In this document: piece after piece, positions 4,035 to 51,064 of the stretch
Position numbering within the stretch: the stretch's first letter is position 1
Layout: each line of letters starts with the position of its first letter
Assembly (NCBI GenBank): GCA_946624575.1
Contig: CAMOSH010000004.1
Span: 1-54,240, forward strand
DNA length: 54,240 nt
From: an uncultured Verrucomicrobiota bacterium
GTDB taxonomy: Bacteria > Verrucomicrobiota > Kiritimatiellia > RFP12 > UBA3636
Direction of reading: 5' to 3'
Position numbers and translations under genes: made by a program
The notes under the pieces: generated by a model
Databases searched by the model: none
What the model was told of the DNA's origin: nothing
What the model saw: the letters and a program-made list of their open reading frames with translations, nothing else

Positions 4035-7000
4035 ATGACCGACATCATCGAAGAACTGAAGCAAAACAAGGAGCTCGGCGCCAAAAGGCTGGTCGGCGAA
4101 TACAGGGCCGGTCTGCTCGTCCTGGCGCAGCGCCTCTGCAACGACGCCGGCGACGCCGAGGAGCTGGTGAACCGCACGTTCGCCGCCGCGATCGACGGCA
4201 TCGACGGCTTTCTCGCGCAGTCGTCGTTCTTCACCTGGCTTTGCCAGATTCTCGTGAATCTCAACGCCAACGACACGCGCCGCAAGTCCTGCACCAACGA
4301 AATCTACCCCGGCGAGCTGCCCGACGTCGCCGACGATTCCGCGAATGACGCGGTGTACAAGGCGCTCGACGCCAAGGCGTTGCGCGACGCGATCTCGACG
4401 CTCCCCGCCGACATCCGCAAAACGCTCATGATGCACTACTTCATGGACCTTTCCGTGAAGGATGTGGCGCGGCTCCTCGCAATCCCGGTGGGAACCGTGA
4501 AGTGGCGACTTCTCTACGCGCGCCAGATTCTCGCGGTGAAGCTCGGCGCCGCCGCCAGAAAACCCGGCGTGAAAACGCTCCTGATGGCGCTCGCCCTCTG
4601 CGGCCTCACCGCCCTCGGCGCGGCGGTTTACCGCATCGCCGTTTCCTCCGGCGTTTCACAGGACACGGGCGGCGAAGCCGCAATCCTGGAGAGTGCAACC
4701 GCCGATCTCCCCGATCTCCCCGATCCCTCCGATCAACCCGATTCCCCCAATCCCCCCGATCCATCCGATCCATCCGGAATCACCGGTTGGACCGGAATCA
4801 CCGGGTGGACCGGAACCAACCTTCTACTTTCAACCAAAAGAACAACAGACATGAAGAAAAAATCACTCCTCGCAGCCGCGCTTGGCACGGCCGCCCTTGC
4901 CACCACCACCGCCTCCGCCGACACGCTCCACCTCACCGCAAGCGACGCTTCCGGCAAGTCGTCCTTCATCACCTGGAACGTTTCGGGCGGCGGCACTGCC
5001 ACGCCGTCTTCCGGAAACGACTATGTGAACGAAGGCTACACGATTCGCACTCCAAACAAAACGAGCGGCAATCCAATAACGCAAGTGTTTTCAGGTGGTT
5101 CGCTGACAATGGGAGATTACTCTGCAGGCAAAGCAGGAAATCTCGCAATCACCCAAAACACGAACCAGGTCATCCGGTTCGACAACGACGGCGTGGTTTT
5201 GAGATATGGCCGCTTCGTGCCGTACATCAGCAGAAAAGAGATTACATACGCGGGCACGATTACTGTCGAGTCACCGAAAGGTCGCCCATATCTTTTTGAA
5301 ATCGCCGATACATCAGGCCACCCTGCCAACACCAACGTATTTTCGGCCACGATTAAAGGCGGGGCGGACGCCGAATTCGCGATTGTGAACAGCGGAGCCG
5401 AAAACCCCAATGGCTATGCGATCCTTCAGCCCTCGACCGATACCTCATTCGCGGGAACGTTGACAATCGGCAAAGTTGATTACGGTTTACGCCCGACCGC
5501 ATCACTCTATCCCGTCCGCGCCGAATACAGAAGCACAAGGACATGGCCCGGAACGATTCACGTAAAGGAAGGATCGCTGCTGCGGGCGCAATACGGAAGC
5601 ACGCGATGGACGATGGGGACCCTCGTCCTCGACAGCGGCGCGACTCTCCATCTGCGCGTGAACGGTAGCAACTTCTCAACCATTACCCTCACCGAATCGC
5701 TTGATGTCGCGGAGGGGGCGATTCTCGACATTGGGGGAGCGCCAGGGGAAAGCGACAAGTCTGCCAAGGAGTGGGTTGTCATGACGCTTCCGCAGGAAAA
5801 GGGAACAATACCTCTCGAAAACTTCACTCTTTCCGGCGTCCCGTCCTTCCCGTCCGACCTCCCCAAGTACACTCTTGAAACCAACGCCGTGGATGGAGTC
5901 TGGCAGTTGATTCTCAAGAAATCCGCACATGACTACCTCGCCGTAAATGACGACACTGGCGGTTATTCGGCGGTCGCGGAGGTTCCTTCGGCCATGACGA
6001 CAGGAACGTCCTGGGCGGGCGGCGCCGCGCCAGGCCCGGGATGCGACTATGTCGCGCAAAAGGACAAAGGCGGTCTGACTGCCTATCCGATAATCCGCAC
6101 TCCGTATCAAAAAACACCGTATGTTTTCCCCGGCGACTCCCTCGTCCTCGGATCGGGAGGCCAGCTTCTTTCATGCTCCAAGGAAGTGGAGTTCCCGCTG
6201 CTCGTCCTCTCCGCTAACACGACATACATTCTGTCGCTTCCCGGCAATGGTACGCATCTGCGCGGCGCAATCCAGACGGTCGGCGGCTCCGACACCTATC
6301 CGCAGAAGATCCAGGCCTACATGAGGGGACTCAACACCGTGGACGCCGACATGTCCGGAAATGGCGCGATTTGGGTGACGGGGCGCAATTCTTCAACCAA
6401 TCCTTTCGGCGACATAGAGTTCACGGCGCTCAACACGAATTTCACGGGCAAGATCAAGGTCTGCGCCGTGGGGCCGACTGAATCATCGGCTGCCAATCCG
6501 CCATCGAATTCGGATTACAGGCACGAGCGCGTCTTCGTGACGGACGCCCGCAACCTCGGCGGGGCGCTCGACGAGTTCCGCGCCGACGCGCTGGAACTGG
6601 CCGACTACTCCGTCCTGGAGGCCCGGAACGACGTTGACCTCAACGTCGCGAACCGCGGCGTGAAGGTGACCGGCAACGCCGGCTTCGCCGCGCCCGCAGA
6701 CGTCACGCTCGCGATCTCGAACGACATCACGTGGAACGGCGCGGCCAGCAAGACCGGCGCCGGAACGCTCGCCCTCGGCGGCGCGCCGCTCATCGCCTCC
6801 GGCGCCACCGCCGAGCTTGAGGTGCAGGAGGGCTTCCTCCAGGCGCTTTCAACCAACGCCGTGAACGGCGTCTCCGTTTCGTTCACTGACGGCGCGTACC
6901 TGCTGGTCGATCCAGCGGCGACTGGAGACGTCGCGACCTTCGGCGCGGTCGATCTCTCGGATAATCCTTTCGGCGGCGATCTGCCGGTGGCGTTCGCGCT

Positions 7001-7211
7001 TCCCGCGCTGGCAGGCGAGTCCGACAGCTACCGCTACCCCAACGTCGCCGTCGCGACCGTGAAGGACTCTGCAACGGCCTCGGCGCTCAGTCTCTCGGCA
7101 AAGAAGATCAAGGGCCATGGCGTCACCTTCGCCACCCGCACCAACGATGACGGCACAGTGACCATCCTCGCCTCGATCAGCCAGAACGCCTTCGTCATGG
7201 TAGTGCGATAA
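4035..7211 (+). CDS. ECF sigma factor with TM segment, frame open into a secreted beta-strand-repeat protein
   Basis: Sigma70 r2-like region (AQRLCNDAGDAEELVNRTFAAAIDGIDGFLAQSSFFTWLCQILVNLNANDTRRK) and r4-like region (LPADIRKTLMMHYFMDLSVKDVARLLAIPVGTVKWRLLYARQ), TM KTLLMALALCGLTALGAAVYRIAV, linker, then a signal peptide; no stop codon between. Confidence 0.7.
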   Translation: MTDIIEELKQNKELGAKRLVGEYRAGLLVLAQRLCNDAGDAEELVNRTFAAAIDGIDGFLAQSSFFTWLCQILVNLNANDTRRKSCTNEIYPGELPDVADDSANDAVYKALDAKALRDAISTLPADIRKTLMMHYFMDLSVKDVARLLAIPVGTVKWRLLYARQILAVKLGAAARKPGVKTLLMALALCGLTALGAAVYRIAVSSGVSQDTGGEAAILESATADLPDLPDPSDQPDSPNPPDPSDPSGITGWTGITGWTGTNLLLSTKRTTDMKKKSLLAAALGTAALATTTASADTLHLTASDASGKSSFITWNVSGGGTATPSSGNDYVNEGYTIRTPNKTSGNPITQVFSGGSLTMGDYSAGKAGNLAITQNTNQVIRFDNDGVVLRYGRFVPYISRKEITYAGTITVESPKGRPYLFEIADTSGHPANTNVFSATIKGGADAEFAIVNSGAENPNGYAILQPSTDTSFAGTLTIGKVDYGLRPTASLYPVRAEYRSTRTWPGTIHVKEGSLLRAQYGSTRWTMGTLVLDSGATLHLRVNGSNFSTITLTESLDVAEGAILDIGGAPGESDKSAKEWVVMTLPQEKGTIPLENFTLSGVPSFPSDLPKYTLETNAVDGVWQLILKKSAHDYLAVNDDTGGYSAVAEVPSAMTTGTSWAGGAAPGPGCDYVAQKDKGGLTAYPIIRTPYQKTPYVFPGDSLVLGSGGQLLSCSKEVEFPLLVLSANTTYILSLPGNGTHLRGAIQTVGGSDTYPQKIQAYMRGLNTVDADMSGNGAIWVTGRNSSTNPFGDIEFTALNTNFTGKIKVCAVGPTESSAANPPSNSDYRHERVFVTDARNLGGALDEFRADALELADYSVLEARNDVDLNVANRGVKVTGNAGFAAPADVTLAISNDITWNGAASKTGAGTLALGGAPLIASGATAELEVQEGFLQALSTNAVNGVSVSFTDGAYLLVDPAATGDVATFGAVDLSDNPFGGDLPVAFALPALAGESDSYRYPNVAVATVKDSATASALSLSAKKIKGHGVTFATRTNDDGTVTILASISQNAFVMVVR
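4702..4815. repeat. Short tandem array of GATC-centred 9-mers followed by an 18-nt unit (ggaatcaccggktggacc) x2
   Basis: ccgatctcc ccgatctcc ccgatccct ccgatcaac ... ccgatccat ccgatccat; all in multiples of 3. Confidence 0.75.
4851..7211 (+). CDS. Secreted autotransporter-type beta-strand repeat protein (internal start within ORF 4035-7211)
   Basis: ATG at 4851 begins MKKKSLLAAALGTAALATTTASA (typical signal peptide); later SNDITWNGAASKTGAGTLALGG resembles PATR motifs. Confidence 0.6.
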   Translation: MKKKSLLAAALGTAALATTTASADTLHLTASDASGKSSFITWNVSGGGTATPSSGNDYVNEGYTIRTPNKTSGNPITQVFSGGSLTMGDYSAGKAGNLAITQNTNQVIRFDNDGVVLRYGRFVPYISRKEITYAGTITVESPKGRPYLFEIADTSGHPANTNVFSATIKGGADAEFAIVNSGAENPNGYAILQPSTDTSFAGTLTIGKVDYGLRPTASLYPVRAEYRSTRTWPGTIHVKEGSLLRAQYGSTRWTMGTLVLDSGATLHLRVNGSNFSTITLTESLDVAEGAILDIGGAPGESDKSAKEWVVMTLPQEKGTIPLENFTLSGVPSFPSDLPKYTLETNAVDGVWQLILKKSAHDYLAVNDDTGGYSAVAEVPSAMTTGTSWAGGAAPGPGCDYVAQKDKGGLTAYPIIRTPYQKTPYVFPGDSLVLGSGGQLLSCSKEVEFPLLVLSANTTYILSLPGNGTHLRGAIQTVGGSDTYPQKIQAYMRGLNTVDADMSGNGAIWVTGRNSSTNPFGDIEFTALNTNFTGKIKVCAVGPTESSAANPPSNSDYRHERVFVTDARNLGGALDEFRADALELADYSVLEARNDVDLNVANRGVKVTGNAGFAAPADVTLAISNDITWNGAASKTGAGTLALGGAPLIASGATAELEVQEGFLQALSTNAVNGVSVSFTDGAYLLVDPAATGDVATFGAVDLSDNPFGGDLPVAFALPALAGESDSYRYPNVAVATVKDSATASALSLSAKKIKGHGVTFATRTNDDGTVTILASISQNAFVMVVR

Positions 7212-7218
7212 CTGGAAG

Positions 7219-7385
7219 CCTAGGAAGTCCTGGGTAGCCCTAGGAACCCTAGGAACCCTAGGGAGCCCTAGGAGCCCTAGGGAACCCTAGGAAGCCCTAG
7301 GAGCCCTAGGAATCCTAGGAACCCTAGGGAGCCCTAGGGAGCCCTAGGAACCCTAGGGAGCCCTAGGAGCCTAGGAGTCCTAGGG
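7219..7385 (+). repeat. CTAG array 1 (units like CCCTAGGAA / CCCTAGGGAG)
   Basis: 17 CTAG tetramers in about 170 bp, period about 9-10 nt, purine-rich spacers on the + strand. Confidence 0.9.
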
Positions 7386-14488: not shown

Positions 14489-14517
14489 ATTGTATCCCCG
14501 CGCAACCACCCGGTCAA
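14489..14517 (-). promoter_or_regulatory. Sigma70-like promoter for rpe: TTGACC-17-TACAAT (minus strand)
   Basis: -35 complement at 14512-14517, -10 complement at 14489-14494, spacer 17. Confidence 0.65.
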
Positions 14518-14544: not shown

Positions 14545-14759
14545 CCTAGTTTTTCTAAGAGGTTCTAGGAATCCTAGGAAACCTAGGCTCCCTAGGGGTC
14601 ATAGGTTTCCTAGAGACCCTAGGTTTCCTAGGTTCCCTAGGGTTCCTAGCGGCCCTAGGTTCCCTAGCGGCCCTAGGCTCCCTAGAGGTCCTAGGAGTCC
14701 TAGGGGTCCTAGGTTCCCTAGCGGCCCTAGAGTTCCTAGGCTCCCTAGGATTCCCTAGC
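14545..14759 (-). repeat. CTAG array 2 (units like TTCCCTAGG/GGCCCTAGG on + strand; opposite polarity to array 1)
   Basis: About 22 CTAG tetramers in about 215 bp with 9-10 nt period between rpe(-) and ligA(+). Confidence 0.9.
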
Positions 14760-24943: not shown

Positions 24944-26293
24944 TTAGAGACCGCGCCAGGGCGTCGGCGAAGGATTGGTCGGCTTTGGCTGCTCGCGCTG
25001 CGGACGAGTACCGGAAGTGCCAGTCGAGGGGCGAGTCGGAGGCGTGAGCTGGCCATCCGTCGGCCTCGCCCCGGAAGGCGTGGTGGGAACCGGATTGTAC
25101 TCGTGCTGCGTGTTGTCGATATCCATCGCGTCGTCGATGATGTTTTCGACCGGAAGGTCGCCATCATCGGCGGGTTCTTCGGTAGAGGAGGGAACTTCCG
25201 GGGTCGTGCCAGTGTCGCCGGGCGTAGCGCCGGTGTCGCCAGGCGTAGCGCCGGTGTCGCCGGGCGTAGCGCCAGTGTCGCCGGGCGTAGCGCCGGTATC
25301 GCCGGGCGTCGTGCCAGTGTCGCCGGGCGTAGCGCCAGTGTCGCCGGGCGTAGCGCCAGTGTCGCCGGGCGTAGCGCCAGTATCGCCGGGCGTAGCGCCA
25401 GTGTCGCCGGGCGTAGCGCCGGTGTCGCCGGGCGTAGCGCCGGTGTCGCCGGGCGTAGCGCCAGTGTCGCCGGGCGTAGCGCCAGTGTCGCCAGGCGTAG
25501 CGCCAGTGTCGCCGGGCGTAGCGCCAGTGTCGCCGGGCGTAGCGCCGGTGTCGCCAGGCGTAGCGCCAGTGTCGCCGGGCGTAGCGCCAGTGTCGCCGGG
25601 CGTAGCGCCGGTATCGCCGGGCGTAGCGCCGGTATCGCCGGGCGTAGCGCCAGTGTCGCCGGGCGTAGCGCCGGTGTCGCCAGGCGTCGTGCCATCAGCA
25701 GCAGTTCCATCAGCGGCGGCGCCATCAGCAGCGGCACCATCAGCAGCGGCCTCGCCATCGGCGGCGCCATCCTTCTTCGCGCCTTGACCCTCGCCAGCTC
25801 CGCCAAGCGGGGAGTCGGAAAGGAATTCCTGAAGGTTGTACTTGTCGGGACGGAGAGCGGCGAGAACCTTCTTGTAAAGGATCTTGAGAGCGTCGCCATC
25901 GGCGATTTCCTCGGAGGAAACGCCAGTCACGACCGCAACGACCGCGGCGGCGCGATCCGCAATCGCTGGATCGGCGATGCCTTCGGAAATGGCGGCAAGA
26001 AGATCGTCCTTTTCAGGCTTTTCACCGGCGACTGCCGCAGCGGCGGCGGCGGCGGCGAGATTGGCCGCCTTGTCGGCGTCCGCCACGTTGGCGAAAGCGG
26101 CCTTGACCGCCGCAATGCCGGCGTCGGCATTTTCCGCCGTGAAGATGCCGCGAGCGATTTCGATGAGCTGCGCGAGATCATCGGCGGAAACGGCTTCCGT
26201 CGTGGCCTCGGCCGCGCCAGCGGGCAGGGTGGCCGCGCCGAAAAGCGCCATAAGCGCCGACGCAGCAATGGTGGTTTGGATTGATGTTTTCAT
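24944..26293 (-). CDS. Secreted repeat protein with (TPGDTGA)n linker
   Basis: Signal peptide MKTSIQTTIAASALMALFGAATLPAGAA; Ala-rich N-domain; about 23 copies of a 7-aa repeat. Confidence 0.8.
   Translation of the reverse strand: MKTSIQTTIAASALMALFGAATLPAGAAEATTEAVSADDLAQLIEIARGIFTAENADAGIAAVKAAFANVADADKAANLAAAAAAAAVAGEKPEKDDLLAAISEGIADPAIADRAAAVVAVVTGVSSEEIADGDALKILYKKVLAALRPDKYNLQEFLSDSPLGGAGEGQGAKKDGAADGEAAADGAAADGAAADGTAADGTTPGDTGATPGDTGATPGDTGATPGDTGATPGDTGATPGDTGATPGDTGATPGDTGATPGDTGATPGDTGATPGDTGATPGDTGATPGDTGATPGDTGATPGDTGATPGDTGATPGDTGATPGDTGTTPGDTGATPGDTGATPGDTGATPGDTGATPGDTGTTPEVPSSTEEPADDGDLPVENIIDDAMDIDNTQHEYNPVPTTPSGARPTDGQLTPPTRPSTGTSGTRPQREQPKPTNPSPTPWRGL
25203..25690. repeat. 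21-nt tandem repeat (gtcgccgggcgtagcgccagt), about 23 copies
   Basis: Directly visible, nearly identical 21-mers with gcc/gtc and ggt/agt variants. Confidence 0.95.
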
Positions 26294-46737: not shown

Positions 46738-46779
46738 CCCAGGCCGTGATCGCGCGCCATCCACGGATGCGGTGCAATC

Positions 46780-46905
46780 GGCTTGGTCGATTTGGTCGGT
46801 TTGGTCGATTTAGTCGACGACCGACCAAATCGACGACCGACAAAGCCAATCGACATCGACGACCGACCAAATCGACGAGCGACAAAGCCAATCGTCGATA
46901 TTTCG
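46780..46905. repeat. TCGA-centred imperfect inverted array (ggtcgatttggtcgg / ccgaccaaatcgacgaccgac)
   Basis: Left part uses ggtcgattt units, right part their reverse complement, potential long hairpin. Confidence 0.8.
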
Positions 46906-47000: not shown

Positions 47001-47153
47001 CAACTTGACCATTCGACATCCCATCCACAGATATTCGGCATCAGACTTATCAACCTTTCAACTTTTCAACCTTTCAACTGGGCAAAGCCCCGGACACATC
47101 GGCCCGCGTGATTGCGGCCTTTGCGTTCTGACAAAGGTTGGTCACACCCAACG

Positions 47154-47336
47154 GCCCATCGTCGCTTGCGCCCGCGCGCGGCGTCTGCTATCCTTTCCCC
47201 CGACGCCGCGCATGGCTCCATCCCTCCGGTAGGGGCCGCGCGCCGCGCGGCCCGCAACCTTTCAACTTTTCAACCTTTCAACCTTTCAACTTTTCAACCG
47301 GATACACCCCCAACCAAATCGTTGCAAAGCGGTCGT
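47154..47336 (+). repeat. Composite repeat copy 2: promoter, MAPSLR-stop, GC hairpin, 5 x YTTTCAAC, block cggatacacccccaaccaaatcgttgcaaagcggtcgt
   Basis: ATG at 47212 to block end is collinear without indels with copy 3. Confidence 0.92.
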
Positions 47337-48026: not shown

Positions 48027-48196
48027 TTGACACCCACCGCCCTTTCTGCCATGCTTTCCCCGTCCCCGCGCATGGCTCCATCCCTCCGGTAGGGGCCGCG
48101 CGCCGCGCAGCCCGCAACCTTTCAACCTTTCAACTTTTCAACTTTTCAACTTTTCAACCGGATACACCCCCAACCAAATCGCCGCAAAGCGGTCGT
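48027..48196 (+). repeat. Composite repeat copy 3: TTGACA-17-CATGCT, MAPSLR-stop, GC hairpin, 5 x YTTTCAAC, conserved block
   Basis: Offset 860 bp from copy 2 throughout. Confidence 0.92.
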
Positions 48197-48388: not shown

Positions 48389-51064
48389 ATGATCCCACAT
48401 GCCTCTTTTCTGCATACAATTGCGATTCTCGTTTTTACACTGACCGCCCAATTAGTGGTGGCTGCTCCGCAAACAATTGCCATGCCGCTTGGCGATGATG
48501 GCTTGACATTGGAAATGGTAAAAACACCTGAAGGCCTCTGGTTCGGGAAGTTTGAAGTGACTCAGGCCCAGTGGCGGCAAATCTCTGGCTCGCTGGTCAC
48601 AGGCGGTCGCGAAGTGGACGAAGGCGCGGACAAACCTGTTCTGGGCGCGACGCCCAATGAGATAGACATTTTTCTGCGGAAACTAAACCTAACGGAGGTG
48701 GCAAAGCGCTCCGGTCTTGTGTTTCGTCTCCCCACGGAAGATGAGTGGACTGCGGCCTGCATGGCAGGCGGTAGCGGCAAGTGGCCGCTCGGCACGGACG
48801 GCCGCGAAGGCTCCCTAGATTCCATGGCGTGGTATTGCTCGCGGCAGAGGAGGGACAATTATACCGCCGATCCCGTGCAGTCAGTCGGGCTTAAGGCTCC
48901 AAACGCATACGGACTTTACGACATGCTCGGCAACGCGGAGGAGATGACATCCACCACGAAACTCGTTGAAAAACCATTCTTGGGCAAGGTCCTTTGCAAC
49001 GTCTGGTGCGGGGGCGGCGTGAACTTCCGTCCGCAGCCGGAACCGATTCTCGACGCATTTGTCGGACAGATCGATGACGGAGGCCAAAACTTCCGCGATG
49101 GTGCCCGCGCAAGGCGCGCCGAAGATGGCCCAATCGGCTTTGGTGGATTCCGTCTCTGCGCAACTGGCGAGGCAAAAGGTGGCGAACCGGCAAATCTGCC
49201 AAATCAGAATCAATCCAAGCCGGCACAGGCACAGGGAAACAAACCGCCAGCACCAGCGGCTGGGGCCAGTGCCACGCTAGAAGCGAAACCGTCAGTGCAA
49301 CCAGTCAAACCGGGAGCATCCTCGCATTCATCCCTCTCTATTTCCCGAGGCGGCGTAACGACATCCTTCTCCGCCACGGTGACAGGAGGCGGCAAAGTAA
49401 GTTCAACGCAATCCTCTACCGTAAATGGCATCACAACGACAGTGAGAACCGTGACGACCGCCAATGGCTCGGAAACGTTGACTGAATATTCTGCGGCAAC
49501 GCCAGAAGCACAGGGGCATTTGGCATACAACCTTCATCATGGCAAGGAAGGTTTTCCAAAGGACATTGCATTGGCAACTTTCTGGTATGAGAAGGCTGCA
49601 GAAGGTGGAGAAGCCATTGCCATGAACAATCTGGGATTGATCCTTCAAGATACGGGAGAGCCAGAGAATGTAAAAAGAGGCTATGAACTGATAGCACAGG
49701 CGGCGGAACTTTGTCCAAACGATTCGGCAATCTGTTTCAATCTCGGCAAATGCTATTACGACGGCAAAGGCGTTACGCAGGATTATGCGAAGGCCGTGGA
49801 ATGGTACCGCAAGGCGGCGGAACAGGACCATGCTACGGCGCAATACAATCTCGGTGTCAGCTATGCCCACGGCTATGGCGTTGCGCAAGACTATGCACAG
49901 GCCGTGGAATGGTACCGCAAGGCGGCGGAACAAGGCCATGCTACAGCGCAAAACAATCTCGGTTTCAGCTATGACCACGGCCAAGGCGTTGCGCAGGATT
50001 ATGCGAAGGCCGTGGAATGGTACCGCAAGGCGGCGGAACAGGGCAATGCCGCGGCGCAAAACAATCTCGGTTTCAGCTATGGCCACGGCCATGGCGTTAC
50101 GCAGGATTATGCACAAGCCGTGGAATGGTACCGCAAGGCGGCGGAACAGGGCGATGCCGCGGCGCAAAATAATCTAGGCGGATGCTACTATTATGGTCGC
50201 GGGGTTGAAATCGATTTTGTCGAAGCAATAAAATGGTACAAGAAAGCTTCGGAAAATGGTGATGAAGTCGCTCAGAAACAACTTGCGCTTTGTTACCAAC
50301 AAGGGACTGGAGTTGAACAGAATTACGCAACCGCCGTATATTGGTATCAAAAGGCCGCAGCGCAAGGAAATGTTGTCGCACAATCAAATTTAGGCCTTTT
50401 ATATTACATTGGAATGGGCGTCGCACAGGATTATGCCGAGGCTGTTAGGTGGTTTCGATTGGCGGCTGAGCAAGGAGATGCGGTACCACAATACAATTTG
50501 GCTGTCTGTTATGAGAAAGGACTAGGAGTCGAAAAAAATTCCAAAGAGGCGGCAAAATTGTATGAACGTGCCGCAAAACAAGGGAATGTTGATGCCCAAA
50601 ATGCGATCGGCGAGGCTTATTTCAAAGGCAATGGTGTTGAGCAAGACAACGAAATCGCCGCAAATTGGTTTAAAAAGGCAGCCACCGGCGGACATTTGAC
50701 AGGAATGTCTAATTTGGCATATTGCTATTCTCAAGGCATTGGAGTAGAAAAAAATGCCAAGAAGGCTGCCGTCTGGTATGAGAAGGCGGCCCAACAGGGA
50801 GATCCCTCAAGCATTAATCATCTAGGAATGTGCTATCTTTGCGGTGAAGGCGTTGAACAGGACAATGAAATAGCTGTCAAATGGTTCCGCAAGGCCGCCG
50901 ATAAAGGTTATGGATGGGCGCAATATAATCTTGGATGTTGCTACCGAGATGGAAAGGGCGTGGAGAAGAACCCCAAGAAAGCGCTAATGTGGTTCCGCAA
51001 GGCTGCCGAACAGGGGCACGAACAAGCCAAGGCGGAAATCAGGAAACTTGAGGCGACAGAGTGA
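48389..51064 (+). CDS. Secreted SUMF1 (formylglycine-generating-enzyme-like) domain protein with about a dozen Sel1 repeats
   Basis: Signal peptide; FRLPTEDEWTAAC, YGLYDMLGNAEEM, GFGGFRLCATGE; repeats AVEWYRKAAEQGxAxAQxNLGxxYxxGxGVxQDY. Confidence 0.88.
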   Translation: MIPHASFLHTIAILVFTLTAQLVVAAPQTIAMPLGDDGLTLEMVKTPEGLWFGKFEVTQAQWRQISGSLVTGGREVDEGADKPVLGATPNEIDIFLRKLNLTEVAKRSGLVFRLPTEDEWTAACMAGGSGKWPLGTDGREGSLDSMAWYCSRQRRDNYTADPVQSVGLKAPNAYGLYDMLGNAEEMTSTTKLVEKPFLGKVLCNVWCGGGVNFRPQPEPILDAFVGQIDDGGQNFRDGARARRAEDGPIGFGGFRLCATGEAKGGEPANLPNQNQSKPAQAQGNKPPAPAAGASATLEAKPSVQPVKPGASSHSSLSISRGGVTTSFSATVTGGGKVSSTQSSTVNGITTTVRTVTTANGSETLTEYSAATPEAQGHLAYNLHHGKEGFPKDIALATFWYEKAAEGGEAIAMNNLGLILQDTGEPENVKRGYELIAQAAELCPNDSAICFNLGKCYYDGKGVTQDYAKAVEWYRKAAEQDHATAQYNLGVSYAHGYGVAQDYAQAVEWYRKAAEQGHATAQNNLGFSYDHGQGVAQDYAKAVEWYRKAAEQGNAAAQNNLGFSYGHGHGVTQDYAQAVEWYRKAAEQGDAAAQNNLGGCYYYGRGVEIDFVEAIKWYKKASENGDEVAQKQLALCYQQGTGVEQNYATAVYWYQKAAAQGNVVAQSNLGLLYYIGMGVAQDYAEAVRWFRLAAEQGDAVPQYNLAVCYEKGLGVEKNSKEAAKLYERAAKQGNVDAQNAIGEAYFKGNGVEQDNEIAANWFKKAATGGHLTGMSNLAYCYSQGIGVEKNAKKAAVWYEKAAQQGDPSSINHLGMCYLCGEGVEQDNEIAVKWFRKAADKGYGWAQYNLGCCYRDGKGVEKNPKKALMWFRKAAEQGHEQAKAEIRKLEATE
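49747..50175. repeat. Near-identical 108-nt tandem Sel1 units
   Basis: gccgtggaatggtaccgcaaggcggcggaacagg recurs every 108 nt four times; later units are diverged. Confidence 0.85.

Follow-up and report, generated by a model that had tools for sequence, protein, structure and literature searches.

Why does the tetranucleotide CTAG, scarce in the genome of this uncultured Kiritimatiellia bacterium, recur 22 times within 213 bp between two divergent genes? A first-pass annotation of the window (the whole 54,240-nucleotide stretch of DNA that was analyzed) had estimated about 22 copies in about 215 bp, filling the interval between two back-to-back promoters, and had read them as a multi-site binding platform, a nucleoid or bridging element, or a phase-variable spacer. 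Here, we ask what kind of element the array is, and which protein, if any, goes with it.

RESULTS

A CTAG array lies between the rpe-like and ligA-like genes

Our exact count agrees closely with the earlier estimate. The CTAG copies are spaced at 9 bp throughout, except for single steps of 10, 18, and 19 bp, and the 18- and 19-bp gaps contain degenerate units. The repeating unit is CTAG-N5 with a free 5-bp linker, mostly CCTAGG followed by N3. We defined the CTAG-N5 array family by at least five CTAG at 9-bp spacing together with at least three different linkers, and the window array belongs to it. Over 310 kb of the genome, CTAG outside arrays has a density of 0.37 per kb, whereas base composition predicts 3.3 per kb, an approximately ninefold depletion that bears out the rarity that had been assumed for CTAG. 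Since CTAG is so rare outside arrays, 22 copies in 213 bp lie far beyond chance. The count for the window as a whole is near expectation (58 observed versus 52 by dinucleotide shuffle), but this total only seems ordinary because 39 of the 58 copies fall in two arrays. The second array begins 8 bp past the stop codon of a co-directional gene.

Table 1. Arrays and neighboring gene features in the window
Feature	Coordinates	Strand	Basis or remark
CTAG array, 22 exact CTAG, 9-bp period	14546..14758		CTAG count and spacing
Second CTAG array, same family, 17 CTAG spaced 9-10 bp apart	7220..7383		CTAG count and spacing
rpe-like gene, 224 aa	13757..14431	-	Name from the first-pass annotation, sequence consistent with it; start codon 114 bp left of the array
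rpe promoter-like site with TTGACC and TACAAT 17 nt apart	14489..14517	-	Consensus match only
ligA-like gene, 839 aa	14816..17335	+	Start codon 57 bp right of the array
1058-aa gene immediately before the second array, C-terminal ..AFVMVVR	4035..7211	+	C-terminal ending recurs beside other arrays in the genome

The array had been described as lying exactly between two promoters, and one side of this description was recovered. A consensus scan found the promoter-like site of rpe, with its -35-like hexamer at 14517-14512 on the minus strand (10 of 12 matches), but the same scan found no promoter for ligA. We found no transcription terminator in or beside the array, which also had no match in Rfam.

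Proteins encoded directly before arrays frequently end in F-[VMT]-[ML]-[VI]-[VI]-R (window 7180-7211; loci L195, L196, L198, L201, and L203), a shared ending that may be a C-terminal sorting or anchoring signal. The window also holds two tandem repeats unrelated to the array family: a 21-bp repeat in 23 copies (25208-25694) and a Sel1-like 108-bp repeat in about four copies (49752-50239).

The array belongs to a dispersed and patchily distributed family

The window's genome contains about 17 array loci, and arrays with the same core and period and unrelated linkers were present in 21 of 59 relatives. More widely, 31 of the 288 class genomes have CTAG arrays, as do 40 of the 201 from Bacteroidaceae, and a scan of GTDB contigs returned, among the matches listed, mostly Bacteroidales along with some Victivallales, Kiritimatiellae, and Verrucomicrobia. 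Their presence is patchy, with many species having none and others dozens. Since isolate genomes also carry arrays (Prevotella sp. tc2-28, P. conceptionensis, and Prevotellamassilia timonensis), the family is not a binning artefact. A reversed control pattern was almost missing from array-rich genomes. Many 9-bp GATC arrays were picked up by the control pattern in three genomes of the class (G279, G311, and G354, of genus g45 in family f23), and these perhaps represent another core type. A phage origin was rejected: six-CTAG arrays turned up in only 76 of the 2.9 million viral contigs, and our searches recovered no relative of the TIGR04258 protein described below from viruses or phages.

Short arrays of other types were also seen. 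The window holds a short 9-bp array of the GGTCGATTT / CCAAATCGA type (46778-46894), a type that recurs in the same genome at a distance of about 1.1 kb from a TIGR04258 domain (L461 3162-3275), and 8-bp arrays of CAACCTTT/CAACTTTT (47045-47079, 47255-47299, and 48115-48159), a type found on other contigs as well (L207, L211, and L212). AACT arrays with an 8-bp period are present in P. conceptionensis loci.

Arrays show no preference for promoters and also lie in frame within coding sequences

Using gene calls made in this analysis, we classified the context of 174 arrays from many species. We found 105 in co-directional intergenic regions, 35 within genes, 24 between convergent genes, and only 10 between divergent genes, and thus no preference for promoters. 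The ligA genes that we found in congeners have neither an array nor the rpe-ligA arrangement, which speaks against the role at divergent promoters that had been proposed. Nor did we find the conserved position upstream of orthologous genes that marks a promoter operator array.

Arrays within genes encode tripeptide repeats, such as LDx, SRx, and PRx. Spacings off multiples of three were absent from coding arrays (0 of 235) compared to 108 of 1,335 in noncoding arrays, and, when set against solved homologues, the array-coded tripeptides appear as in-frame insertions in IleRS, GH127, glutamate synthase small chain-like (GltD-like), and GH95 proteins. We rejected the array as a translational stop, since 8- and 10-bp steps break the TAG frames in noncoding arrays. 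Directly outside arrays and reading outward (loci L073-L192 and L239-L276), five-A runs occur at 15% of ends versus a background of 1.3%, and five-C runs at 4.1% versus 0.5%.

CTAG cores are retained while linkers and unit number change

Nine array loci are common to the window's genome and its congener G001, and their unit number and linkers differ. Mismatches in orthologous arrays amounted to 2 of 381 in CTAG (0.5%), compared to 72 of 484 in linkers (14.9%) and 43 of 1,064 in flanks (4.0%), and across 192 arrays degenerate cores made up 45 of about 1,850 internal units (about 2.4%). The array is therefore not junk in the simple sense, as had been argued: CTAG, rare elsewhere, is preserved in arrays while linkers change.

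Units are gained and lost in 9- or 18-bp steps, and a clean 38-bp duplication is one example. Adjacent linkers are less alike than permuted ones (0.541 versus 0.569 ± 0.007), while every second linker is more alike (0.632 at lag 2), indicating that amplification often copies two units and that the 9-bp step is not simply a duplicated 9-mer. Unit number varies between closely similar loci, which agrees with the earlier reading, but a role of the array tied to the rpe and ligA promoters is unsupported. Array loci of the window's genome (L193-L204) are 92-98% identical to those of G001 (L226-L238), compared to only about 67-74% for ligA and a 10-kb control stretch in the same genome pair, which points to recent exchange of array-bearing loci or to DNA shared between bins.

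As RNA, the window array folds strongly (z of -6.4 and -9.0) because its CTAG cores are palindromic. Linker complementarity in nested order was 48.2 versus 46.1 ± 1.1 when permuted, and an RNA hairpin reading was rejected since linkers are not complementary beyond permutation.

A TIGR04258 protein is associated with arrays

Clustering of the 335 proteins encoded next to arrays gave an unexpected lead. The largest cluster was a protein of 210-250 aa, with 13 entries from about ten loci. All seven array-adjacent proteins scored over the TIGR04258 cut-off (53-71 bits; NCBIfam curated cut-off 40 bits), and the protein also exceeds the cut-off for TIGR02436, with an N-terminal domain that matches PF05635 weakly. 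Each of the 10 distinct TIGR04258 homologues in array loci abuts an array, four of them being flanked on both sides, and at several TIGR04258 loci the stop codon of the gene is the TAG of the first CTAG.

Since these first loci had been fetched by their arrays, we ran the reverse test from protein to array. Of 66 loci fetched by the protein, 37 had an 8-10-bp array no farther than 900 bp away, compared to 22 of 1,000 control windows (p about 5e-35), and in the same 66 loci and 1,000 windows no other repeat period was significantly enriched. On a complete Prevotella nigrescens replicon, also found by protein, a four-CTAG 9-bp array lies just downstream of the TIGR04258 gene. We found TIGR04258 in 198 of the 288 class genomes, in 67 of the 201 Bacteroidaceae genomes, and in none of 14 control genomes. 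Within the Bacteroidaceae, it is present in 31 of the 40 genomes with CTAG arrays versus 36 of the 161 without (Fisher p = 1.5e-10, phylogeny ignored). The nine array-positive genomes that have no TIGR04258 match include the array-rich G127 and G241, and in G233, rich in CTAG arrays as well, the single TIGR04258 gene adjoins GTCnGAC arrays.

A search for defense systems with PADLOC gave no convincing match, and a defense system was rejected on these grounds; among the genes neighboring arrays, reverse transcriptases, which a diversity-generating retroelement would have next to its Avd-like gene, formed no recurrent cluster. In the open-access literature searched, we found no mention of TIGR04258 or its suffix domain and no paper linking CTAG arrays and Prevotella.

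Array core and period follow the protein clade

Several array types occur beside TIGR04258 genes, some with CTAG cores in 9-bp or 10-bp periods and some with GTCnGAC, TTTAAA-like, GAGT, GGGAC, or other cores. Mapped onto a phylogeny of 63 proteins, array labels required 9 changes compared to 24.5 when shuffled, and none of 200 shuffles was as low. Proteins with 9-bp and 10-bp CTAG arrays fall together with strong support and separate by period into sister groups, in a sample where most of the 9-bp CTAG proteins were found through nearness to CTAG arrays. One genome (G144) has a TIGR04258 gene between TCCGGA-type arrays, with further 9-bp CCGG-type arrays in sampled stretches elsewhere.

The structure model of a CTAG-clade protein (mean pLDDT 84.7) comprises a four-helix bundle and a long C-terminal helix. 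The bundle matches the S23-type four-helix proteins 2gsc and 2rld with a Foldseek probability of 1.00 and weak E-values (0.03 to 0.4). In the C-terminal helix, a conserved GGI(K/R)ERM..AR segment is followed by a heptad-like coil, and this tail could be a bZIP-like arrangement of basic region and leucine-zipper-like coil that contacts DNA.

Four TIGR04258 genes are present in the window's assembly (288 contigs, 92% complete). They are not of the CTAG clade and do not lie beside CTAG arrays; the arrays next to them are of GGGAC type with 9-bp period, of 8-bp period, or not clear. The absence of a CTAG-type gene among these four weakens the protein-array link for this genome. In the congener G001, a CTAG-type TIGR04258 gene lies between CTAG arrays (L237). 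The TIGR04258 variants encoded at loci L460, L461, and L462 (G000 contigs C87, C63, and C85) carry a topoisomerase-like zinc ribbon at the C-terminus (CPxCGxPMR..GCSxYPxC), and one of these variants sits between near-identical 8-bp TCGTC arrays.

DISCUSSION

We conclude that the window array is probably one member of a dispersed family of tandem sites that a TIGR04258 ("four helix bundle suffix") protein recognizes as its cognate DNA target. A multi-site binding platform, as proposed at the outset, is still the best kind of reading, with array type tracking the protein family and binding being what we infer from it. The S23/Avd-like four-helix bundle would mediate oligomerisation and the long C-terminal helix would contact DNA, with successive protomers or dimers sitting on successive CTAG cores, so that protein geometry would set the period (9 bp in one clade and 10 bp in its sister clade). 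Array units would be gained and lost in their 9- or 18-bp steps by slippage or unequal exchange, and we propose that binding requires an intact core, which would keep CTAG in place while linkers drift. New copies could arise wherever a 9n-bp insertion is tolerated, either between genes or in frame in enzyme loops. Because of the placement of arrays, their patchiness, and the layout of the gene between arrays, we consider it more likely that arrays spread in trans for their own sake than that they serve a host function.

If they did serve the host, the same protein might coat or bridge arrays for chromosome organization, segregation, or gene insulation, with CTAG kept by selection for that role. 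A conserved core with free linkers, depletion of CTAG elsewhere, arrays of many units, and an oligomeric protein fold would suit such a platform, but we think it unlikely given the patchy presence even among close species, the array location that is not conserved at ligA, the in-frame arrays in essential enzymes, and the lack of a preferred gene context. Regulation of the divergent rpe-ligA promoters, or a phase-variable spacer between them, is very improbable. The array does lie between both start codons with one promoter-like site beside it, and unit number varies at comparable arrays, but ligA lacks an array in congeners, few arrays lie between divergent genes (10 of 174), and the same kind of array occurs inside coding sequence. 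The first-pass annotation had made its reading depend on CTAG being uncommon genome-wide and on arrays being placed with respect to promoters, and the former is the case but the latter is not. We give hardly any credence to an ordinary neutral minisatellite that arose by replication slippage and is associated with the protein incidentally. Such an origin would fit arrays that grow and shrink by 9 or 18 bp at a time, including the 38-bp duplication, but slippage leaves unexplained why CTAG is kept in 97-98% of units while linkers change, why distant phyla have the same core, and why core and period follow the protein phylogeny.

Beyond the target-site family itself, we tentatively suggest that TIGR04258 proteins and their cognate 8-10-bp arrays could form a previously undescribed class of genetic element, in which a four-helix-bundle protein maintains arrays of the core that it targets and spreads them along the chromosome, even in frame into essential genes. 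The protein clade would set core and spacing, and the system would have been exchanged between gut-bacterial phyla. Our findings connect bacterial minisatellites of a widespread, unexplained class with a protein family that has a name but seems not to have been studied. Since protein clade predicts core and spacing, the protein-repeat pairing is directly testable in a family of small proteins with readable, clade-specific putative DNA targets. If true, this would provide a mechanism for in-frame low-complexity insertions into bacterial genes, even essential ones.

Several known systems share features with these arrays. REP sequences are 20-40-bp hairpins accompanied by RAYTs, which are REP-associated tyrosine transposases of the Y1 type. 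As in REP/RAYT, short repeats are dispersed in many copies, the gene is flanked by its own repeat on both sides, protein subfamilies have their own repeat types, and many solo copies of the CTAG array occur elsewhere. On the other hand, the TIGR04258 protein is a four-helix protein rather than a Y1 transposase, with no Y1 transposase cluster among the 335 array neighbors, and its arrays are tandem with a period of 9 or 10 bp, their linkers not being inverted repeats beyond chance, unlike the arms of REP hairpins. Rickettsia palindromic elements are fixed palindromic selfish DNA in protein genes, and they resemble the arrays in lying in frame within conserved protein genes, where they are tolerated as surface insertions; the arrays differ in being tandem, with a constant 4-bp core, variable linkers, and variable unit number. 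In MetJ met boxes, omega heptads, and ParR-parC, short cores repeated in tandem every 7-11 bp are bound by small proteins that form dimers or oligomers. The short tandem cores here have similar steps and would be bound in a similar way, but they occur in dozens of copies, also within genes, rather than at a few fixed promoter or centromere sites, and the TIGR04258 protein fold is unrelated by sequence to those proteins. On the protein side, there is a likeness to S23, the 23S rRNA intervening-sequence protein, and to Avd bundles, as seen in the weak PF05635 match, the TIGR02436 score over cut-off, and the fold shared with 2rld and 2gsc. TIGR04258 proteins extend this bundle by their suffix, and those of the CTAG clade also by a coiled C-terminus. 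Their genes are found with DNA arrays instead of in rRNA, and reverse transcriptases formed no recurrent cluster among the array neighbors.
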